A DNA stretch of 37,800 nt, from the IMG/VR virus record IMGVR_UViG_3300008120_000134, positions 1 through 37,800 of that record. One strand, given 5' to 3'. Under the pieces are notes generated by a model. It saw only the letters and a list, made by a program, of their open reading frames with translations. It was not told the origin of the DNA and ran no database searches. Of this stretch, positions 18,799 to 37,800 are shown in pieces (positions within the stretch are counted from its first letter, which is position 1; each line of letters begins with the position of its first letter). The DNA comes from a virus. The position numbers were made by a program, and so were the translations under genes.

Positions 18799-21663
18799 AT
18801 GAGCGGGCCATATCAAGATATACTAAAAGATTCAAGCGAATCATTTGAAAATGGAGATTACTTTTTAGTAACCATTTTAGATTTGGATCTTGGAACTCAA
18901 TACCCATTAGAGTTTAGATGGAAATATAAAGATGGAACATTTGGTAAAGACTGGTCTGCCGTAAGGTATATTACGACTCCAGGCGGAACAGTTCCAGAAG
19001 AGCCTCAACTTCTTGTTACTGATGTAACAGCGGAACCTGGTATTATAAAAGTTACTTGGTCTGGTAAAGGTGCTTCTAATCAAAATCTACAAAATATAGA
19101 TAGAGTAAATATTCATATTACTGGAACAAGTTTTGGAGACGGAACAAAGCCAGCTGGATTTTTTAAAGAGGCTGGAACTCAGACATTCTCAGTAGAAGCT
19201 GGTACATATTTTGTACAACTAAAATCAGTAACGGTTAACGGAGTAACGTCTTTCTTCAGCGAATCAAGGACTGTAGTAGTACCAGCTATTGAAGAGCCTA
19301 TCGAAGCTCCAGTAGCCCCAGTAGGATTTTCTGCAAGACCTGTTTTAAGCGGTATTGAAGTAACATGGAACGGTGCATACTCTGGCGGAGCAAGTTGGCT
19401 AGGATTTGAAGCTGTTAATATCTATGCTGGTACGTCAGCATCAGCCACAGGCGGGACATATATAAAAGTCGGTCAAATGACTGCTAATAAAACAGAAAAC
19501 AAAATAATTATTCCTATAGACGGAACATATGTTAAATACGGCAGCGTTGCATATATTCATGCAAGCTCTTTAAATCGTGCAATACCACCAGTAGAGTCTT
19601 CTATATCTGCAAATGTTGCAAGCGCAACTCCAAGTCAAGTAGTAAATACAGATTTAATTAACGAGGTTGTTACGGCCACTAAAATTGCAACTGCAGCAAT
19701 TACTGAAGTTAAAATTGATAATAACGCTATAACTGCTGCTAAGATTGCTACAGGAGCAATTACTGAAACTAAAATTGCCTCTGATGCGATTACTGCGCCT
19801 AAAATTGCAGCAGGTGCTATTGAGGCTGGTAAAATTGCTGCAGGAGCAATTACTGCAGATAAGATTGCGGCAAATGCTATAGAAGCAGATAAAATTGCAG
19901 CAAATGCAATTACTGCTGTAAAGATACTTGCAGGATCAGTAACTACTGCAAAGCTAGACGCTTTAGCTATAACATCAGATAAGATTGCTGCCAATGCAAT
20001 TATTGCTGGAAAAATCGATACCAATGCCATTACAGCAGATTTAATTAATTCTGGAACATTAAAAGCTACTACGTATATAAGAGTTGGAACTAAAAACTTG
20101 ACTACTGGAGCTGGAGGCAGAATAGAAATATCTGGCTCTGCTGTAGAAGATGGAGCTTTTGATATTCCAGCAGGATTGTACATATATAATTCAGCAGGAA
20201 CTGCAGTTTTATCAGCGCCATTAGGTGGTGGTTTATCTGTAACTGGTTCTTTAACTGCTACATCTATATCTACATCTTCTGGAAGATTTACTGTAGGCGC
20301 TACTGGAATTATGAATGCACAAGACGCAACATTTTCTGGAACAATAACTGCAAGTGGAGGATCAATAGGAGGAATAAGAATATTTGCTTCCTCTATTCAA
20401 AACAATACAGATGAAGCTGCATCTACATTTAAGTTAGATAATAGCGGTAGAGCACGTTTTGGAGCAACATCTGGTAATTCTATAATATTAAATCCTGTAA
20501 GCGGTACTGGAACCAATATTATATACCATTCAACTGACGGCGGAGCTACTGCATCTGGAAGCTTCTCGGTTACTGGAGGAGGCATTCTAACTGCGGTAGG
20601 AGGAAACTTCAGCGGAACAATTACAAATGGTACTGATTTTTGGAATGCAAACAATACATTTAGATTAGGCGGAGCAAATGGAATCAATAAAGCTTCAGCA
20701 ACATCTAATGCAATAACAATCGGATCAGATGTAACTATTAGCGGAGACCTGACAGCAAAATCTATAAACATAGATACAAATAATTATTGGAATAATACAG
20801 GAAATGCTGGCAAATTTAGAGTTGGCGGAAGTACAAAATATGTTTATTGGGATGGGTCTACAATAGACATTAACGGTAAAGTGACTGCAGATTCTGGACA
20901 AATAGGACCTTGGGTCATTAATAATGCTGGATACCTCTCAGATTCTGGGGGAACAGTTAGATTGTTGCCAAGCGGAACAATAGGTTCACAAGTATATACA
21001 CTTTTAACAAACAGAGCTTTACTAGCAAATTCTATTACTCTTGGAGCAATTGCAGAAACTGGTGGACCAAACACTGGAGAAATGTATATTGCTGGTTCAA
21101 GTGCACCTTCTGGATTTGCATTAAATGTTTCTGGGTCCTGTCAAATAGGTGCACAAACACAAATTTATAATGATGGATACGTTAGTTTTAGAGGCGGAAG
21201 CATAAGTATAAATGGATCTTTAAGCTTTGGCGTTCCTGCAAATGGATTATTTGAATTTTTAAATACCTCTGGCAACGTAAGAGTAGCTTCTACATATTCA
21301 AATAGCGTAAGCGGCAGAACTATGATTATATCGAATACTGGACTTTTCGGTACAGCAGCTTCTACAATAAGAAAAAAGCATGAGGTAGAAGATTATGCGA
21401 TAAATGAAGATGCCTTGTTGTCATTAGAATTAAAAACATTTAAATATAAGCCACAATATGATGAACTCCAAGAAAATCAATACGGGTTTATTGCAGAAGA
21501 AGCGGAAGCCTTAGGGTTGGCTGAGCTTATACAATACGACAAAGATGGTCTTGTAGATTATTTCGATTACTCCAGATTACCAGTATTTTTATTTCAAATT
21601 ATCAAAAATCAAAGACAAAAGATTAATGATATAGAAACAAGACTTGACGCCCTTGAAGGATAA
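18799..21663 (+). CDS. Tail fibre / receptor-binding protein with S74 chaperone
   Basis: This 954-residue protein has three FN3-like beta sandwiches in about residues 1-285 (for example VTDVTAEPGIIKVTWSGKG and PVGFSARPVLSGIEVTWNGA). Residues about 287-415 hold repeats of the type AITxxKIAxxAI. Residues about 420-845 are Gly/Ser/Thr-rich beta sequence of a trimeric shaft. The end (about 853-954) matches the peptidase S74 intramolecular chaperone: S855-TIRK-K860 gives the Ser-Lys pair at the usual five-residue spacing, then TFKYKPQY, YGFIAEEAE and a final coiled coil (NQRQKINDIETRLDALEG). In related fibres the chaperone trimerises the shaft and cuts itself off. Confidence 0.85.
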   Translation: MSGPYQDILKDSSESFENGDYFLVTILDLDLGTQYPLEFRWKYKDGTFGKDWSAVRYITTPGGTVPEEPQLLVTDVTAEPGIIKVTWSGKGASNQNLQNIDRVNIHITGTSFGDGTKPAGFFKEAGTQTFSVEAGTYFVQLKSVTVNGVTSFFSESRTVVVPAIEEPIEAPVAPVGFSARPVLSGIEVTWNGAYSGGASWLGFEAVNIYAGTSASATGGTYIKVGQMTANKTENKIIIPIDGTYVKYGSVAYIHASSLNRAIPPVESSISANVASATPSQVVNTDLINEVVTATKIATAAITEVKIDNNAITAAKIATGAITETKIASDAITAPKIAAGAIEAGKIAAGAITADKIAANAIEADKIAANAITAVKILAGSVTTAKLDALAITSDKIAANAIIAGKIDTNAITADLINSGTLKATTYIRVGTKNLTTGAGGRIEISGSAVEDGAFDIPAGLYIYNSAGTAVLSAPLGGGLSVTGSLTATSISTSSGRFTVGATGIMNAQDATFSGTITASGGSIGGIRIFASSIQNNTDEAASTFKLDNSGRARFGATSGNSIILNPVSGTGTNIIYHSTDGGATASGSFSVTGGGILTAVGGNFSGTITNGTDFWNANNTFRLGGANGINKASATSNAITIGSDVTISGDLTAKSINIDTNNYWNNTGNAGKFRVGGSTKYVYWDGSTIDINGKVTADSGQIGPWVINNAGYLSDSGGTVRLLPSGTIGSQVYTLLTNRALLANSITLGAIAETGGPNTGEMYIAGSSAPSGFALNVSGSCQIGAQTQIYNDGYVSFRGGSISINGSLSFGVPANGLFEFLNTSGNVRVASTYSNSVSGRTMIISNTGLFGTAASTIRKKHEVEDYAINEDALLSLELKTFKYKPQYDELQENQYGFIAEEAEALGLAELIQYDKDGLVDYFDYSRLPVFLFQIIKNQRQKINDIETRLDALEG
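19660..20050 (+). repeat. In-frame repeats encoding A-I-T-x-x-K-I-A units
   Basis: About a dozen imperfect 30-base units encode AI(T/E)xxKIAxx blocks in the fibre stalk. The DNA repeats (gcaattactgc, aaaattgcagc and variants) are near-identical over short stretches and could recombine or slip to change stalk length in frame. Confidence 0.75.
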
Positions 21664-32997: not shown

Positions 32998-33296
32998 TGT
33001 CCGAAAGATCAGAGGCTAAGCGTGATGGTGCAAAGCAACAAAAGAATAGTGGCAGAGGAGATTATCAAAAAGGCGATGCCATATGGAATGGATTTGTTGT
33101 AGATTATAAAGAAACTGGCAAGTCCGTTGCAGTTTCAAAAGATATGTGGGCTAAAGTTTGTACAGACACATTCAAGGTAAGTAGATCTTTTAATCCAGTA
33201 TTAAAGCTGGTTATTGGAGAAGGAAATAGCAAGACAAGGCTGGCAGTAATAGAGTGGTCTTTACTGGAACAACTAGTAGAAAAGTGGAGCGAGTGA
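32997..33296 (+). CDS. Candidate small PD-(D/E)XK nuclease (Hjc-like)
   Basis: ATG 32997 overlaps the upstream stop, giving 99 residues. The pattern E6 in an N-terminal helix, SGRGDYQKGD27, then FVVD36-Y-K38-ET and GKSVAVSKDMW matches the order of catalytic elements in archaeal Hjc-like Holliday junction resolvases and VRR/PD-(D/E)XK nucleases: Glu, Asp before a strand, then (E/D)-x-Lys in the next strand, then a Ser-containing helix. The C-terminal strand (VLKLVIGEGNSKTRLAVIEW) continues the fold. It lies between RecA and a Cas4-like nuclease. The catalytic triad is inferred from spacing; activity is unproven. Confidence 0.55.
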   Translation: MSERSEAKRDGAKQQKNSGRGDYQKGDAIWNGFVVDYKETGKSVAVSKDMWAKVCTDTFKVSRSFNPVLKLVIGEGNSKTRLAVIEWSLLEQLVEKWSE

Positions 33297-33451
33297 GAGA
33301 TATATTAATGACAACAGGCGTAGGAGCAATTACAGGCGCTATCTTTAGCGCATTTAAATTGCCAATACCTGCTCCACCAGTATTTGCAGGACTTATGGGT
33401 ATTGTTGGCCTATGGATTGGCTATGCTATAGTTACAAGGATGATGGCATGA
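33293..33451 (+). CDS. XapX-domain membrane mini-protein
   Basis: GTG 33293 overlaps the previous stop (GTGA) with GGAG three bases upstream, giving 52 residues; ATG 33308 would give 47. The sequence is almost entirely hydrophobic: GVGAITGAIFSAFKLPIPAP, then VFAGLMGIVGLWIGYAIV. Two membrane helices joined by a PIPAPP turn is the hallmark of XapX domains (DUF1427), which are found in bacteria and phages; no biochemical role is established. It would sit in the host membrane. It overlaps the next gene by four bases (ATGA). Confidence 0.65.
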   Translation: MRDILMTTGVGAITGAIFSAFKLPIPAPPVFAGLMGIVGLWIGYAIVTRMMA

Positions 33452-33783
33452 GCGATAAAAGTACATTAGAATTAATTAGCGATATCACAGAATTTAATGA
33501 TCTTCATGAGTTCATGAAGGATGAACATCTTGATAAAGCTTTAGCTATTACAGTCAAGCTGCTCATGAACCCAGATGTTCCTGCTGCCAAAGCACCACAA
33601 TTAATTATTGAGCTACAAGCAATGTCGACAAAGTTTTCTATGCTTGCTGCTGTCTATTCAACGATAGCAAAAGATAAAGCGGGCACAGCAAACAATAATA
33701 AAAAGAATGTATATTATTCAGCAAAGGAGTCGATAGATAAGCTTGTGGATGCCCTCAAGTATATCGTTCGTTATAATGGCTAG
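33448..33783 (+). CDS. Hypothetical helical protein
   Basis: ATG 33448 (AAGGATG site upstream) gives 111 residues. It is all helical: STLELISDITEFNDLHEFMK, HLDKALAITVKLLMNP, APQLIIELQAMSTKFSMLAA, and a C-terminal helix SAKESIDKLVDALKYIVRY. No enzyme motif is present. It lies in the recombination operon between the XapX and Cas4-like genes and overlaps the latter by eight bases. Confidence 0.6.
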   Translation: MSDKSTLELISDITEFNDLHEFMKDEHLDKALAITVKLLMNPDVPAAKAPQLIIELQAMSTKFSMLAAVYSTIAKDKAGTANNNKKNVYYSAKESIDKLVDALKYIVRYNG

Positions 33784-34561
33784 AGATATAGTAAAGAATT
33801 TAAAATTTAAAAAGTACGAAGGTAAGTTTGATCCAAAAGAGTTTGCCAAAATGCTAGATGACGCATATCTAGCTACCAAGAGGGCAGATGGAGCAATGAC
33901 TAAGTATACATTTAGTCCAAGTAGTTTTGGTTATGGTAATGGAAATTGCCCTAGATATTGGTATATGGCTTTTAGCGGAGCTCATTTTGTAGACAACAAT
34001 GATGCACAAGCGATTGCAAATATGGCTAATGGTACTAAAGCCCATGAAAGAATTCAAAGTCTGATAGAAAAAATGGGAGACCCCGTTAAGTCAGTACAGA
34101 CAGAAGTAGAAATTAAAAATGAATATCCGCCTATTCGTGGCTTCATAGACCTTGTAATTAATTGGGACGATGAAGAAGTGCTTGGTGAAATTAAGACTGC
34201 GAAGCAAGAAGTATGGGATACAAGGCAAGCAGAGATGTCACCTTCGGCAAACCATATGCTTCAGCTTTTAGCATACATGAAGTTGCGTAATGTCAAGGAA
34301 GCCTTCTTCCTATATGAGAATAAGAATACTCAAGAGCTTCTTATCATACCACTGCAGATGAATGAAAAGAATAAAGAGATTATAGATAATCTATTTGTAT
34401 GGCTTTGCGAAGTTTATGATAATTACAAAGATGGCGGAATTCCAATGAGGCCATTCCTTAAAACAAGTTACGCATGCAAGGGATGTCCCATAAAGAAAGA
34501 ATGTTGGTCTGGAGAAACTGGAACGGTACAGATAGAAGCATATGAGGTTCCAAAGCTATGA
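33776..34561 (+). CDS. Cas4-like PD-(D/E)XK nuclease with Fe-S cysteines
   Basis: With start ATG 33776 the protein has 261 residues. Four cysteines of a likely iron-sulphur cluster are C58 (GNCPRYW) and C234, C237, C243 (ACKGCPIKKEC), the split arrangement of Cas4/AddB nucleases. Between them lie the catalytic elements H90 (GTKAHERI), D125 (RGFIDLVI), E138-x-K140 (LGEIKTAK) and Q163 (MLQLLAYMK). These enzymes resect DNA ends to give single strands, which RecA can use. It is a stand-alone phage nuclease and not part of a CRISPR locus, as no cas genes or arrays are present. It overlaps the next gene by four bases (ATGA). Confidence 0.85.
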   Translation: MARDIVKNLKFKKYEGKFDPKEFAKMLDDAYLATKRADGAMTKYTFSPSSFGYGNGNCPRYWYMAFSGAHFVDNNDAQAIANMANGTKAHERIQSLIEKMGDPVKSVQTEVEIKNEYPPIRGFIDLVINWDDEEVLGEIKTAKQEVWDTRQAEMSPSANHMLQLLAYMKLRNVKEAFFLYENKNTQELLIIPLQMNEKNKEIIDNLFVWLCEVYDNYKDGGIPMRPFLKTSYACKGCPIKKECWSGETGTVQIEAYEVPKL

Positions 34562-34836
34562 TCTGTGCTAATAAAGAATGCTCAAGGGAATTTGATGCGA
34601 AGACGCATAATCAAAAGTATTGCTCAGATGAATGCTGCCGTGTAGCAACAAATAGACGGATTATGGAAAAGTATTATGAGAAAAAAGCAATCCGTAATGG
34701 TGCTAAAAGGGTATGCAGGAAATGTAATACTAGGCTGAGCAGATATAACGAATCAGAAATATGTGCGGGATGCCAGAAAAAAATAGACATTACACAAAAG
34801 AATAAGTTATTGAGGATGATAGATGAAATTGGGTGA
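34558..34836 (+). CDS. Two-zinc-finger protein
   Basis: This 92-residue protein starts at ATG 34558. The first module is CANKEC-x-EF (residues 3-8) followed by KYCSDECCRVATNRR (near 20-30), which resembles phage HNH-associated or MYND-like zinc modules with a basic helix. The second is CRKC (near 53-56) with ICAGC (near 69-72). It lies between the nuclease and resolvase genes and overlaps the latter by 14 bases. DNA binding is likely but the family is not named. Confidence 0.65.
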   Translation: MICANKECSREFDAKTHNQKYCSDECCRVATNRRIMEKYYEKKAIRNGAKRVCRKCNTRLSRYNESEICAGCQKKIDITQKNKLLRMIDEIG

Positions 34837-35389
34837 ACTAATTAAAACAAAGGCCCACAGGGTTCTTGGTATAGATGCTTCTACAAATTCTGTTGCATTC
34901 TGTTTAATGGAAAATGATAAGCCATTGAAATGGGGCAAGATCGAATTTGAAGGATCAGACATATACGAAAAGATACATGACGCAAAGGTCAAGATGCATG
35001 CTATGCTTCCTGAGCTTAAGTCTGATTACATAGTAGTTGAGGGTGCAGTATTCGTTAAGTCTCCAGATGCTGTAATTAAACTATCTTATGTTTATGGAGT
35101 CGTTATTGCAGAGCTGATGTCTACTGGCGCTAAGGTTATGACCATATCACCTACATCTTGGCAGGCGTACATAGGAAATAAAAATCCAACAAAGATGGAG
35201 AAAGATAAGCTTAAGTTTGAAAATCCAGGGCATGCTGAATCTTGGTACAAAGCAAAAATGCGGGAAATAAGAAAGCAAAGAACTGTAGATTATTTTAATA
35301 AGAAATACAATTTAGGCCTAGACGATTTCGACGTAGCAGATGCATTCGGCATTGCTCATTATTCAAACACGGTGTTAACAGAACGATGA
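34823..35389 (+). CDS. RuvC-like Holliday junction resolvase
   Basis: This 188-residue protein has the RNase H-fold acidic residues of RuvC: D18 in GIDAS, E73 in YIVVEGA, and D170/D173 in DFDVADAFGIAHY. SWQAYIG near 113 matches the conserved segment before the last helix. An insertion with Lys/Glu (NPTKMEKDKLKFENPGHAES) occurs before the final helices. It cuts four-way junctions formed by RecA-driven recombination and during packaging of branched DNA. It is of the phage type and overlaps the next gene by four bases. Confidence 0.85.
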   Translation: MKLGELIKTKAHRVLGIDASTNSVAFCLMENDKPLKWGKIEFEGSDIYEKIHDAKVKMHAMLPELKSDYIVVEGAVFVKSPDAVIKLSYVYGVVIAELMSTGAKVMTISPTSWQAYIGNKNPTKMEKDKLKFENPGHAESWYKAKMREIRKQRTVDYFNKKYNLGLDDFDVADAFGIAHYSNTVLTER

Positions 35390-35526
35390 AACTATATAAA
35401 AGTAAAGACTGGCTATACCGACGATATGTCGTTCAAAAAAAGACTATGGAAGAAATTGCAAAAGAATGTAATGTGACGGTAATGACCATTTATCGTTCTT
35501 TAAAAGAAAATGGGCTAATAAAATGA
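35386..35526 (+). CDS. 46-residue HTH protein
   Basis: ATG 35386 overlaps the RuvC-like stop as ATGA, and TGA 35524-35526 overlaps the next start. The product has a basic N-terminus (KLYKSKDWLYRRYVVQKK) and a clear HTH (TMEEIAKECNVTVMTIYRSL), where EEIAKECNV forms the first helix and turn and TVMTIYRSL the recognition helix. The fold resembles the HTH of resolvases or of RNA polymerase sigma factors (region 4-like). It may be a regulator of the next genes. Confidence 0.7.
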   Translation: MKLYKSKDWLYRRYVVQKKTMEEIAKECNVTVMTIYRSLKENGLIK

Positions 35527-35945
35527 GCGTTATCTATACTGGGGGCACCTTTGACCTGTTTCATTCTGGTCATGTTAACCTTTTGAAAAGATGTAAAGAG
35601 CTGTCTGGAGACTGGGGGAGCGTAGTAGTTTCATTAAATACAGACGAATTCATTCAGCAGTATAAAGGAAAGCCACCAATTTGTAGCACAGAAGAAAGAA
35701 TGTCTGTTCTTGAATCATGCAGATATGTGGACCAAGTAGTTTTAAATGTTGGGGGGGCAGATTCTAAAATAGCAATAGAAATTGTTAAGCCAGACTATAT
35801 AGTAATAGGATCTGATTGGGCAAAAAAAGATTACTATTCTCAAATGGGTTTTACCCAAGATTGGCTAGATGATCGTGGTATTGGATTGGTTTATGTCCCA
35901 TATACACAAACAATTTCTACTACAAAATTAAAAGGAAGAATGTGA
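35523..35945 (+). CDS. TagD-like nucleotidyltransferase
   Basis: This 140-residue protein has the GTFDLFHSGHV signature (H14-x-G-H17) near the N-terminus, a mid-region TEERMSVLESCRYVDQVVLN, DYIVIGSDW, and ISTTKLKGR at the C-terminus. All are marks of the TagD/GCT family that transfers CMP or AMP to a phosphorylated alcohol or sugar (glycerol-3-phosphate, heptose-phosphate type). A phage copy next to a glycosyltransferase suggests activated building blocks for virion or DNA decoration. The substrate cannot be named from sequence. It overlaps the glycosyltransferase by one base. Confidence 0.8.
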   Translation: MSVIYTGGTFDLFHSGHVNLLKRCKELSGDWGSVVVSLNTDEFIQQYKGKPPICSTEERMSVLESCRYVDQVVLNVGGADSKIAIEIVKPDYIVIGSDWAKKDYYSQMGFTQDWLDDRGIGLVYVPYTQTISTTKLKGRM

Positions 35946-37336
35946 TGAAATTTTTTACCTATGTGGTTTGCTGGGATGAAGTGTATGATAATGTTCTTAA
36001 TATAGAGCATTCATTTAAGTCAAATAATATTCCACATAAAATTATAAATTCTGGTTCTAGAATTAGTGACGAATGGTTAAATGTTGGAGACATAAGATAT
36101 TATAGGCAACTATATAGAGCTGTTAAAGATTTTGATCGTTCTTATGAGTACATGTTTTGGCTTGCTGGTGACGTAAGTTATAATAACTGGACATCATTTC
36201 TAGATAGGGCAAACTTATCTGTTTCAACATATAATGTTTTTGCATATGCTCCACATTTGACAAGTGAACCATGGCATGAAGGATCTTCTAGAATATCTAA
36301 TTTAGACTTAGACAATAAAATGCTGCTTTCAATTCAAACAGATGGTATAGCAGTTATACTGCATAGAGATGTAGTTGACATGCTTGAAAAATATTTTGAT
36401 TTCCTATCCAGTAAGACGGATATTACAAAGTTGACTAGCGGCTGGGGAATGGATATGATTTGGTGTGCGTATTCTATATATAATGAAAAACTAGTTCTAA
36501 GAGATAATGAAAATATTTTAAATCATCCCTCTGGTAGCAGCTATAATCATGACAAAGCTTCCCATGAATTAAAAATAATTCTAGAAACTTTTTATGAGTT
36601 TTGTGATGTAAATGATATAGACTCTAATAAGATTAAACAATTACATGACAAGATATATGGAAGAATGCAGCACAGGCCAGACTGCTTGTCTATAAGTTCA
36701 TTTTACGACACAGAGCCAAACTTGTTAAAAAATAAATATCCAATAAACTATCACACGATATATATAGATGACACCAGAGCATCTAATAGAGATAATTTAG
36801 ACTACATGCTAAATGGTAATAAGATAGATATAAAATGTCTTAATGCTAAAAAAGACGGAGAAATAGATAAATTTAAATTAGAAAATCCAGAATTTAAATT
36901 TGCTTGGGATGGGTTCAAATTAGGAGAAATTGGTAATTTTGGAAGTCATTATCTTGCTTGGAAATACTTAAAGCAGAGCGATTTAAATGAATTAATTATA
37001 TTTGAAGATGACGTTTTAATAAATAATTCATTTCATTATAAATATCAAACTGCTATGAGTGTGTTGCCAAATGATTATGATATATTTAGTATCTATGTAG
37101 ATCCAAATCAGCATCCAAGATTTGACGAATCTCAAAGAATTAGTTATTATATAGCCAAGGGATATCAGGACTGGTCTACTTTATGCTATGTAATTTCAAA
37201 GCGTGGAGCAGAAAAACTCTGCAAATATGTAGAAGAGATAGGATTTGATCATCCAACAGATTGGTTTATTTTTAGGAAAGGGCATCAGGGTATATTTAAT
37301 GTTTATACCCTCCCACCATATATTGAGAAATATTGA
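35945..37336 (+). CDS. Two-part glycosyltransferase (C-terminal GT25-like)
   Basis: ATG 35945 overlaps the previous TGA; the in-frame GTG at 35942 is an alternative. The C-terminal half (about 265-463) matches glycosyltransferase family 25: HTIYIDDTRASNRDNL, GEIGNFGSHYLAWKYLK, an EDD motif at E354-D355-D356 (LIIFEDDVL), and YVISKRGAEKLC. The N-terminal half (1-240) begins KFFTYVVCWDEVYDNVLNIE, has YMFWLAGDVSYNNW near 75-90 and resembles another nucleotide-sugar transferase fold, but its family is unclear. The codon use is more AT-rich than in nearby genes. Decoration of virion proteins or modified bases is inferred. Confidence 0.7.
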   Translation: MKFFTYVVCWDEVYDNVLNIEHSFKSNNIPHKIINSGSRISDEWLNVGDIRYYRQLYRAVKDFDRSYEYMFWLAGDVSYNNWTSFLDRANLSVSTYNVFAYAPHLTSEPWHEGSSRISNLDLDNKMLLSIQTDGIAVILHRDVVDMLEKYFDFLSSKTDITKLTSGWGMDMIWCAYSIYNEKLVLRDNENILNHPSGSSYNHDKASHELKIILETFYEFCDVNDIDSNKIKQLHDKIYGRMQHRPDCLSISSFYDTEPNLLKNKYPINYHTIYIDDTRASNRDNLDYMLNGNKIDIKCLNAKKDGEIDKFKLENPEFKFAWDGFKLGEIGNFGSHYLAWKYLKQSDLNELIIFEDDVLINNSFHYKYQTAMSVLPNDYDIFSIYVDPNQHPRFDESQRISYYIAKGYQDWSTLCYVISKRGAEKLCKYVEEIGFDHPTDWFIFRKGHQGIFNVYTLPPYIEKY

Positions 37337-37390
37337 GAATCCACTCAGTATAGATTCAAGATATGAATCACAAGTTCAATAGGAGCGGAT

Positions 37391-37720
37391 ATGTTAGAAC
37401 CAGTATTTCCAGATTCACCTCAATTTAAATGTGAAGACTTGTATCTACTTACAGTAGGTACAGAAGCAGGCAAAGAAATTTTAGAAACCTGCCATGAAAT
37501 TGCACATATGTTGGTCAAAAAGAATATTGCCTACGGCAATTCAGCCCTAGATCCTGTGCGTATATTTTCAAAGGCGGGACCAAGAGAGCAACTCCATGTA
37601 AGAATCGATGACAAATTAAATAGATTAATGAAGGGCACAGATTACCCAGGCGATAATGATATTGATGATTTAATTGGTTATTTAGTCCTATTAAAGATTG
37701 CCAAGCAAAAATCTAGTTGA
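37391..37720 (+). CDS. DUF1599/MazG-like protein
   Basis: This 109-residue protein has an AGGAGCGG site before ATG 37391. The segment KKNIAYGNSALDPVRIFSKA, then REQLHVRIDDKLNRLMKG and DDLIGYLVLLKIA fits the DUF1599 family (also described as nucleotide modification associated domain 1), an all-helical MazG-like fold whose conserved D-D-L pair and YGN turn are visible. These proteins are frequent in phages and are thought to act on nucleotides. Enzyme activity is unproven. The C-terminus overlaps an inverted repeat. Confidence 0.65.
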   Translation: MLEPVFPDSPQFKCEDLYLLTVGTEAGKEILETCHEIAHMLVKKNIAYGNSALDPVRIFSKAGPREQLHVRIDDKLNRLMKGTDYPGDNDIDDLIGYLVLLKIAKQKSS

Positions 37721-37735
37721 TTTTTTAGTCAACTA
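37714..37735. repeat. Perfect inverted repeat over the DUF1599-like stop codon
   Basis: TAGTTGA (37714-37720) pairs with TCAACTA (37729-37735) around TTTTTTAG. It contains the stop codon and overlaps the -35 of the next promoter, so it could be a terminator, an operator, or both. Confidence 0.55.
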
Positions 37736-37745
37736 AGATTATAAT
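37717..37745 (+). promoter_or_regulatory. Promoter for the last, probably leaderless gene
   Basis: TTGATT (37717-37722) and TATAAT (37740-37745) have a 17-base spacer. Eight bases separate the -10 from ATG 37754, so transcription would begin at or within one or two bases of the start codon, and no ribosome binding site is present. Confidence 0.6.
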
Positions 37746-37753
37746 GTATATAT

Positions 37754-37800
37754 ATGGACATTGAATTAGCTGATCATTTTGATCGCATGAATAAGGTGGT
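37754..37800 (+). CDS. Start of a hypothetical gene (3' partial)
   Basis: ATG 37754 opens a frame of 15 complete codons (MDIELADHFDRMNKV) that runs off the window. The other nearby ATG (37744) hits a stop after six codons. The promoter spacing and missing Shine-Dalgarno support a leaderless mRNA. Too little is visible to name a function. Confidence 0.45.
   Translation, partial: MDIELADHFDRMNKV

Follow-up and report, generated by a model that had tools for sequence, protein, structure and literature searches.

A candidate virion glycan decoration cassette built around a nucleotidyltransferase and a fused glycosyltransferase in a virus contig

The right end of the window, meaning the whole 37.8-kb virus contig that was analysed, carries a compact row of genes in the order RuvC, helix-turn-helix protein, nucleotidyltransferase (NT), glycosyltransferase (GT), and 109-residue protein. 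The plus strand of the contig holds head, tail, and replication genes, and positions 33000-37800 showed no DNA similarity to known phages. A tail-fibre-like protein at 18799-21663 contains tandem 30-nt (10-residue) repeats at window positions 19666-20055. The features of the right end are listed below.

34823..35389, plus strand: RuvC-like Holliday junction resolvase (PF02075, 6.8e-5; phrog_159, 1.2e-22)
35386..35526, plus strand: 46-aa helix-turn-helix mini-protein, absent from the earlier note on this DNA (phrog_9759, DNA-binding protein, 1.1e-10)
35523..35945, plus strand: NT, cytidylyltransferase fold, phrog_7878 subfamily (PF01467, 2.4e-18)
35945..36673, plus strand: N-terminal half of the GT, residues 1-243, predicted GT-A (AlphaFold, Foldseek)
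36737..37330, plus strand: C-terminal half of the GT, approximately residues 265-462, GT25 (PF01755, 3.7e-15; invariant FEDD at 353-356)
37320..37336, plus strand: 10-nt insertion specific to the window (comparison with relatives, 475 aa)
37391..37720, plus strand: small conserved protein of 109 residues (phrog_1485, 8.8e-13)

The genes are tightly packed and under strong purifying selection. The helix-turn-helix gene overlaps both RuvC and the NT at ATGA junctions, the NT stop and the GT start share one base (TGATG at 35943-35947), and overlaps of 1 to 4 bases continue as far as the GT. The three open reading frames described previously, NT, GT, and the 109-residue protein, are all present, and the reported overlap between the NT and a 463-residue GT is borne out as a one-base overlap with the GT at 35945-37336. 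Values of dN/dS range from about 0.02 to 0.22 for all genes against relatives that are 56-100% identical (Nei-Gojobori method; in the more distant pairs the synonymous sites are nearly saturated), which argues that the genes are not chance reading frames. In syntenic relatives the small and large terminase subunits, recognised by size, position, and synteny with gp86-87 of phage TunaTartare, follow shortly downstream. Since these relatives continue into terminase genes, the contig appears to end just short of its packaging genes.

The NT has the cytidylyltransferase fold and, judged from its sequence, is a distinct subfamily that is TagD-like without being a TagD equivalog. It scores 67 bits against PF01467 (cut-off 21), which places it in the cytidylyltransferase superfamily, and matches phrog_7878 at 2e-36. 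The HxGH motif is present as HSGH, which is the consensus of the NT family. Among solved structures, its closest relatives are ethanolamine-phosphate cytidylyltransferase (CDP-ethanolamine synthase) and TagD (1coz). The term TagD-like in the earlier note therefore holds for the fold but not for the equivalog: the score against TIGR01518 is 80.6 bits with a cut-off of 165.4, and the RTEGISTT signature is absent. Assignment to the HldE adenylyltransferase domain, despite the PHROG name, is likewise rejected (TIGR02199, 76.8 bits with a cut-off of 181.5). Alignment of 62 distinct NT homologues shows the motifs TGGTFDLFHSGH and GSDWA and a conserved insert, DYYxQMxFxQxWLD. The family has PYTxxIS[ST]T at the position of PRTEGISTT in TagD. 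Tyr takes the place of the Arg of RTEGISTT both in the window and in the consensus of the family, and all 30 of the commonest motif variants have it as well (PY), while the homologues from Streptomyces phages retain Arg there (DRRTGMSTT). The predicted substrate that the NT activates is a phosphorylated polyol or sugar.

The C-terminal half of the GT is a GT25 domain with a GT-A fold, in agreement with its earlier description as GT25-like. The PF01755 profile matches GT residues 285-441, counted from a GTG one codon upstream, with an E-value of 3.7e-15 and 56.8 bits against a cut-off of 24. The acidic FEDD motif is invariant in this domain (32 of 32 sequences), and the half superposes on the TunaTartare GT with a TMt of 0.86 and an rmsd of 1.7. 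The model and Foldseek agree with a GT-A fold for this domain.

The N-terminal half, previously unassigned, is a new sequence family with a predicted GT-A glycosyltransferase fold. The structure prediction that had been proposed for residues 1-240 gave, for residues 1-243, an AlphaFold model with a pLDDT of 93.5 and a GT-A fold. GT-A enzymes lead the Foldseek matches, among them TarS (TMq 0.61), B4GALNT1 (0.59), and TarP (0.58). This identity was resolved by structure only, because sequence searches of Pfam and PDB sequences gave no match and searches of PHROG and, by tblastn, of phages gave no supported match. Homology to TunaTartare gp78 was also considered and found no support from BLAST, phmmer, or hmmsearch --max, where the best score was 2.1 bits, to a relative of gp78. 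Across 31 homologues, 14 positions of the N-terminal half are invariant, including D76, D170, and D187. The domain also occurs as a single-domain gene in five loci (L041, L043, L072, L077, and L079), and in two it adjoins a separate GT25 gene (L066 and L068).

Both halves are GT-A domains in the AlphaFold model of the whole chain, which has a pLDDT of 92.8. Compared as a whole with the PDB, the chain is matched best by the collagen galactosyltransferase COLGALT1, a protein-glycosylating protein with two GT domains, and GTs of PBCV-1 and mimivirus are also among the structure matches. A pattern search of cellular genome contigs found no cellular relatives of the fused GT. The NT and GT are probably cytosolic, since no strong hydrophobic segment was found in either. 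At the C-terminal end of the GT, a 10-nt insertion near 37325 duplicates ATATTGAGA and shifts the frame, replacing the last 13 or so residues seen in relatives, whose proteins are 475 aa long compared with 463 in the window. The insertion is lacking in L002, and L017 matches the window over GT residues 409-462 and then continues as a reading frame 13 residues longer. The insertion could be a real allele, or it could stem from an error in sequencing or assembly.

The third gene probably does not belong to the cassette proper, since it is found with other GT types (L039, L044, and L051) and is missing beside the fused GTs of L015, L050, L067, L080, and L081. Its only match is phrog_1485, a family of unknown function (9e-13), and Pfam matches none of seven homologues. 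The suggestion that it is a DUF1599-like protein linked to nucleotide modification has no support from profiles: PF07659 (DUF1599/Nmad1) gave no match at E<=10 in the window or four relatives while detecting the control genomes, and no base-modification enzyme was among the matches listed for the window.

The genes between RuvC and terminase form a slot whose content varies among relatives around a constant pairing of NT and GT. Loci were collected for their resemblance to the window's NT or GT, so that the counts describe this NT family rather than all phages. Dereplication left 57 NT loci, of which 35 have complete flanks. A GT-class gene adjoins the NT in all 35, where three (L039, L044, and L051) rest on a 175-aa ORF family that is GT-like from sequence alone. 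This family (FLQDS) replaces the fused GT beside the NT in L039 (6426-6953) and about 20 further loci, and it has no match in Pfam or PHROG. The RuvC-like gene forms the left border of the slot and is kept in most syntenic relatives. Inside the slot are GT25, GT2, GT1, and DUF4422 genes, split or fused GTs, and FkbM sugar methyltransferases, the last in 12 of the 35 complete-flank loci. Some loci have genes resembling NAD-dependent (nucleotide-sugar) epimerases or dTDP-glucose dehydratases. GT-A, GT25, and FkbM are joined in one chain in L067 (6414-8522, 702 aa) and L050 (6426-8501, 691 aa), and a gene of the IMP dehydrogenase/GMP reductase family lies between the GT and the third gene in L023 (7843-8862) and also in L026, L034, and L038. 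Convincing splits of the GT gene are found in L066 and L068. The apparent splits in L064 and L038 look like frameshifts, with a C-terminal part that lacks the first strand. Comparison of L008 with the window suggests that its GT was exchanged as a block, because the GTs are only 79-82% identical while the flanking NT and third gene are 97% and 100% identical. The invariable NT-GT pairing and the sugar-tailoring enzymes in the slot give good support to the earlier view of the locus as a decoration cassette that makes and transfers an activated group.

The reading favoured here, with moderate confidence, is that this freshwater-type phage cassette is a cytosolic glycan-building island that decorates a virion protein. 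From its fold and motifs, the NT would couple a phosphorylated sugar or polyol to a nucleotide, giving an activated donor. The two domains of the GT, whose folds are predicted from models, might then act one after the other, each adding a residue, or one might add the linking residue and the other extend it; the order of action and the sugars are inferred. The acceptor would most likely be a virion protein made in the cytosol, by analogy with mycobacteriophages and in view of the probable cytosolic location of the enzymes, their sugar-methylating and sugar-epimerising partners, and the exchange of GTs. The glycan probably differs between related phages, since GT, FkbM methyltransferase, and epimerase or dehydratase genes are swapped in one slot, and such variation is what would be expected of a trait under selection for surface variety. 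Against this reading, the neighbours of the cassette are replication and terminase genes and not tail or capsid genes, and the GT of the window lacks its usual C-terminus. CDP-polyols are not known as usual donors for GT-A enzymes, which also counts against decoration. A bolder and rather unlikely version is that the NT is phage-specific with an unusual donor, as its PYT signature and conserved insert suggest, and that the fused double GT-A enzyme uses this donor to build a virion glycan in abundant aquatic phages, one that changes quickly as GT and tailoring genes are exchanged in blocks. If true, this would be a phage counterpart of serotype switching.

The same genes could act on other targets, each of them less probable than a virion protein. 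Modification of the host surface, in which the cassette alters cell-wall glycan or teichoic acid and blocks superinfection or adsorption to debris, is improbable. The fold of the N-terminal domain is near those of the wall teichoic acid GTs TarS and TarP, and the NT shares its fold with TagD, an enzyme of teichoic acid precursors. However, the likeness to TarS and TarP is a general GT-A similarity (TM of about 0.6, 12-13% identity), and the cassette encodes neither a flippase nor a membrane GT of the Gtr kind. With no integrase family among the matches listed in the window scans, lysogenic conversion would not be expected. Slightly more doubtful still is DNA hypermodification, in which the NT makes an activated sugar that the GTs attach to a modified base of phage DNA, conferring resistance to restriction. 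The position of the cassette next to replication and packaging genes and a MazG-like gene within the window are consistent with this, and DNA pentosylation is known in phage Thanatos, which encodes its own sugar pyrophosphorylase and has a candidate GT (PMC12838424). Thanatos also encodes a putative deoxycytidylate hydroxymethyltransferase (PMC12838424), whereas no enzyme that hydroxylates or hydroxymethylates bases was found here, in genomes that are incomplete for the window and for most relatives. In 15 contigs there was no gene with a thymidylate synthase fold and no Tet/JBP match above the cut-off, with two weak matches in two relatives, and no base-modifying family was among the first 25 families listed for 40 further ORFs of the window. 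FkbM methylation and variable GTs also fit surface glycans better. Base hypermodification is less likely than virion decoration, since the scans turned up no enzyme of base modification among the matches listed and the presence of the third gene does not follow that of the GT. The weak Tet/JBP match in G001 was set aside as below the cut-off and within a row of ORFs that read as 2OG-oxygenase-like. Three neighbouring ORFs at 40-2136 of L093, a 112-kb contig of a relative, read as 2OG-Fe(II) oxygenase-like.

Least probable is a chance assembly, in which the three are auxiliary genes without a common task that accumulated in a hotspot of gain and loss where the replication module meets the packaging module. 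In favour of this, the content of the slot is plastic, with independent variation of the third gene and the IMP dehydrogenase gene. The NT and GT nevertheless occur together in every complete-flank locus and are under strong purifying selection, and their pairing recurs with differing GT families across several phage groups, including Streptomyces and Arthrobacter phages. On the favoured reading of virion decoration, a conserved activator combined with transferases and tailoring enzymes that can be exchanged would mean that phages are able to vary the sugars on their surface. The presence of the cassette in aquatic phages as well as in culturable Streptomyces and Arthrobacter phages makes the question directly testable in culture.

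Related gene rows are found in cultured actinophages. Stanwilliamsviridae phages of Streptomyces have a GT25, a second GT, and an NT in a row (TunaTartare gp77-79, Jay2Jay gp39-37), and the Arthrobacter phage Talia1610 has two GTs and an NT. The NTs of TunaTartare and Jay2Jay are homologous to that of the window (about 58% identical), as are their GT25 proteins. The TunaTartare row lies downstream of RuvC, directly after a helix-turn-helix gene (gp76), and upstream of the terminase genes, and the cassette of the window likewise lies between RuvC and terminase. This synteny with Streptomyces phages suggests an actinobacterial host. In contrast to the window, the Stanwilliamsviridae have separate GT genes in the order GT-GT-NT rather than NT-GT, and no sequence relation is detectable between the second GT, TunaTartare gp78, and the N-terminal domain of the window. 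In Actinoplanes phage phiAsp2, pas34 (L096, 2992-4782) is 599 residues long and has a GT-like N-terminal part related to gp78; it is flanked by two GTs, with structural genes nearby. It is labelled a putative O-methyltransferase by the depositors and a DNA methyltransferase in RefSeq, a label that may mislead inferences about DNA modification.

The enzymes and their proposed role also have known counterparts. The NT shares its fold and its HxGH and GxDW motifs with the glycerol-3-phosphate cytidylyltransferase TagD/TarD, while it has the additional DYYxQMxFxQxWLD insert and Tyr in place of the Arg of RTEGISTT. COLGALT1 resembles the fused GT in having two GT-A domains per chain with GT25 at the C-terminal end, but identity is about 13% and the whole-chain TM is poor (about 0.33), so the domain arrangement differs. 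A precedent for virion glycosylation comes from PMC12363180, which reports Freeman et al. 2023: in mycobacteriophages (Che8, Corndog, and Myrna) the phages' own GTs modify the capsid and tail tube. In the literature consulted, such glycosylation has been demonstrated in a few mycobacteriophages. These three phages provide an actinophage precedent with phage-encoded GTs, as in the window. The cassette would represent a familiar phage strategy in a new layout.
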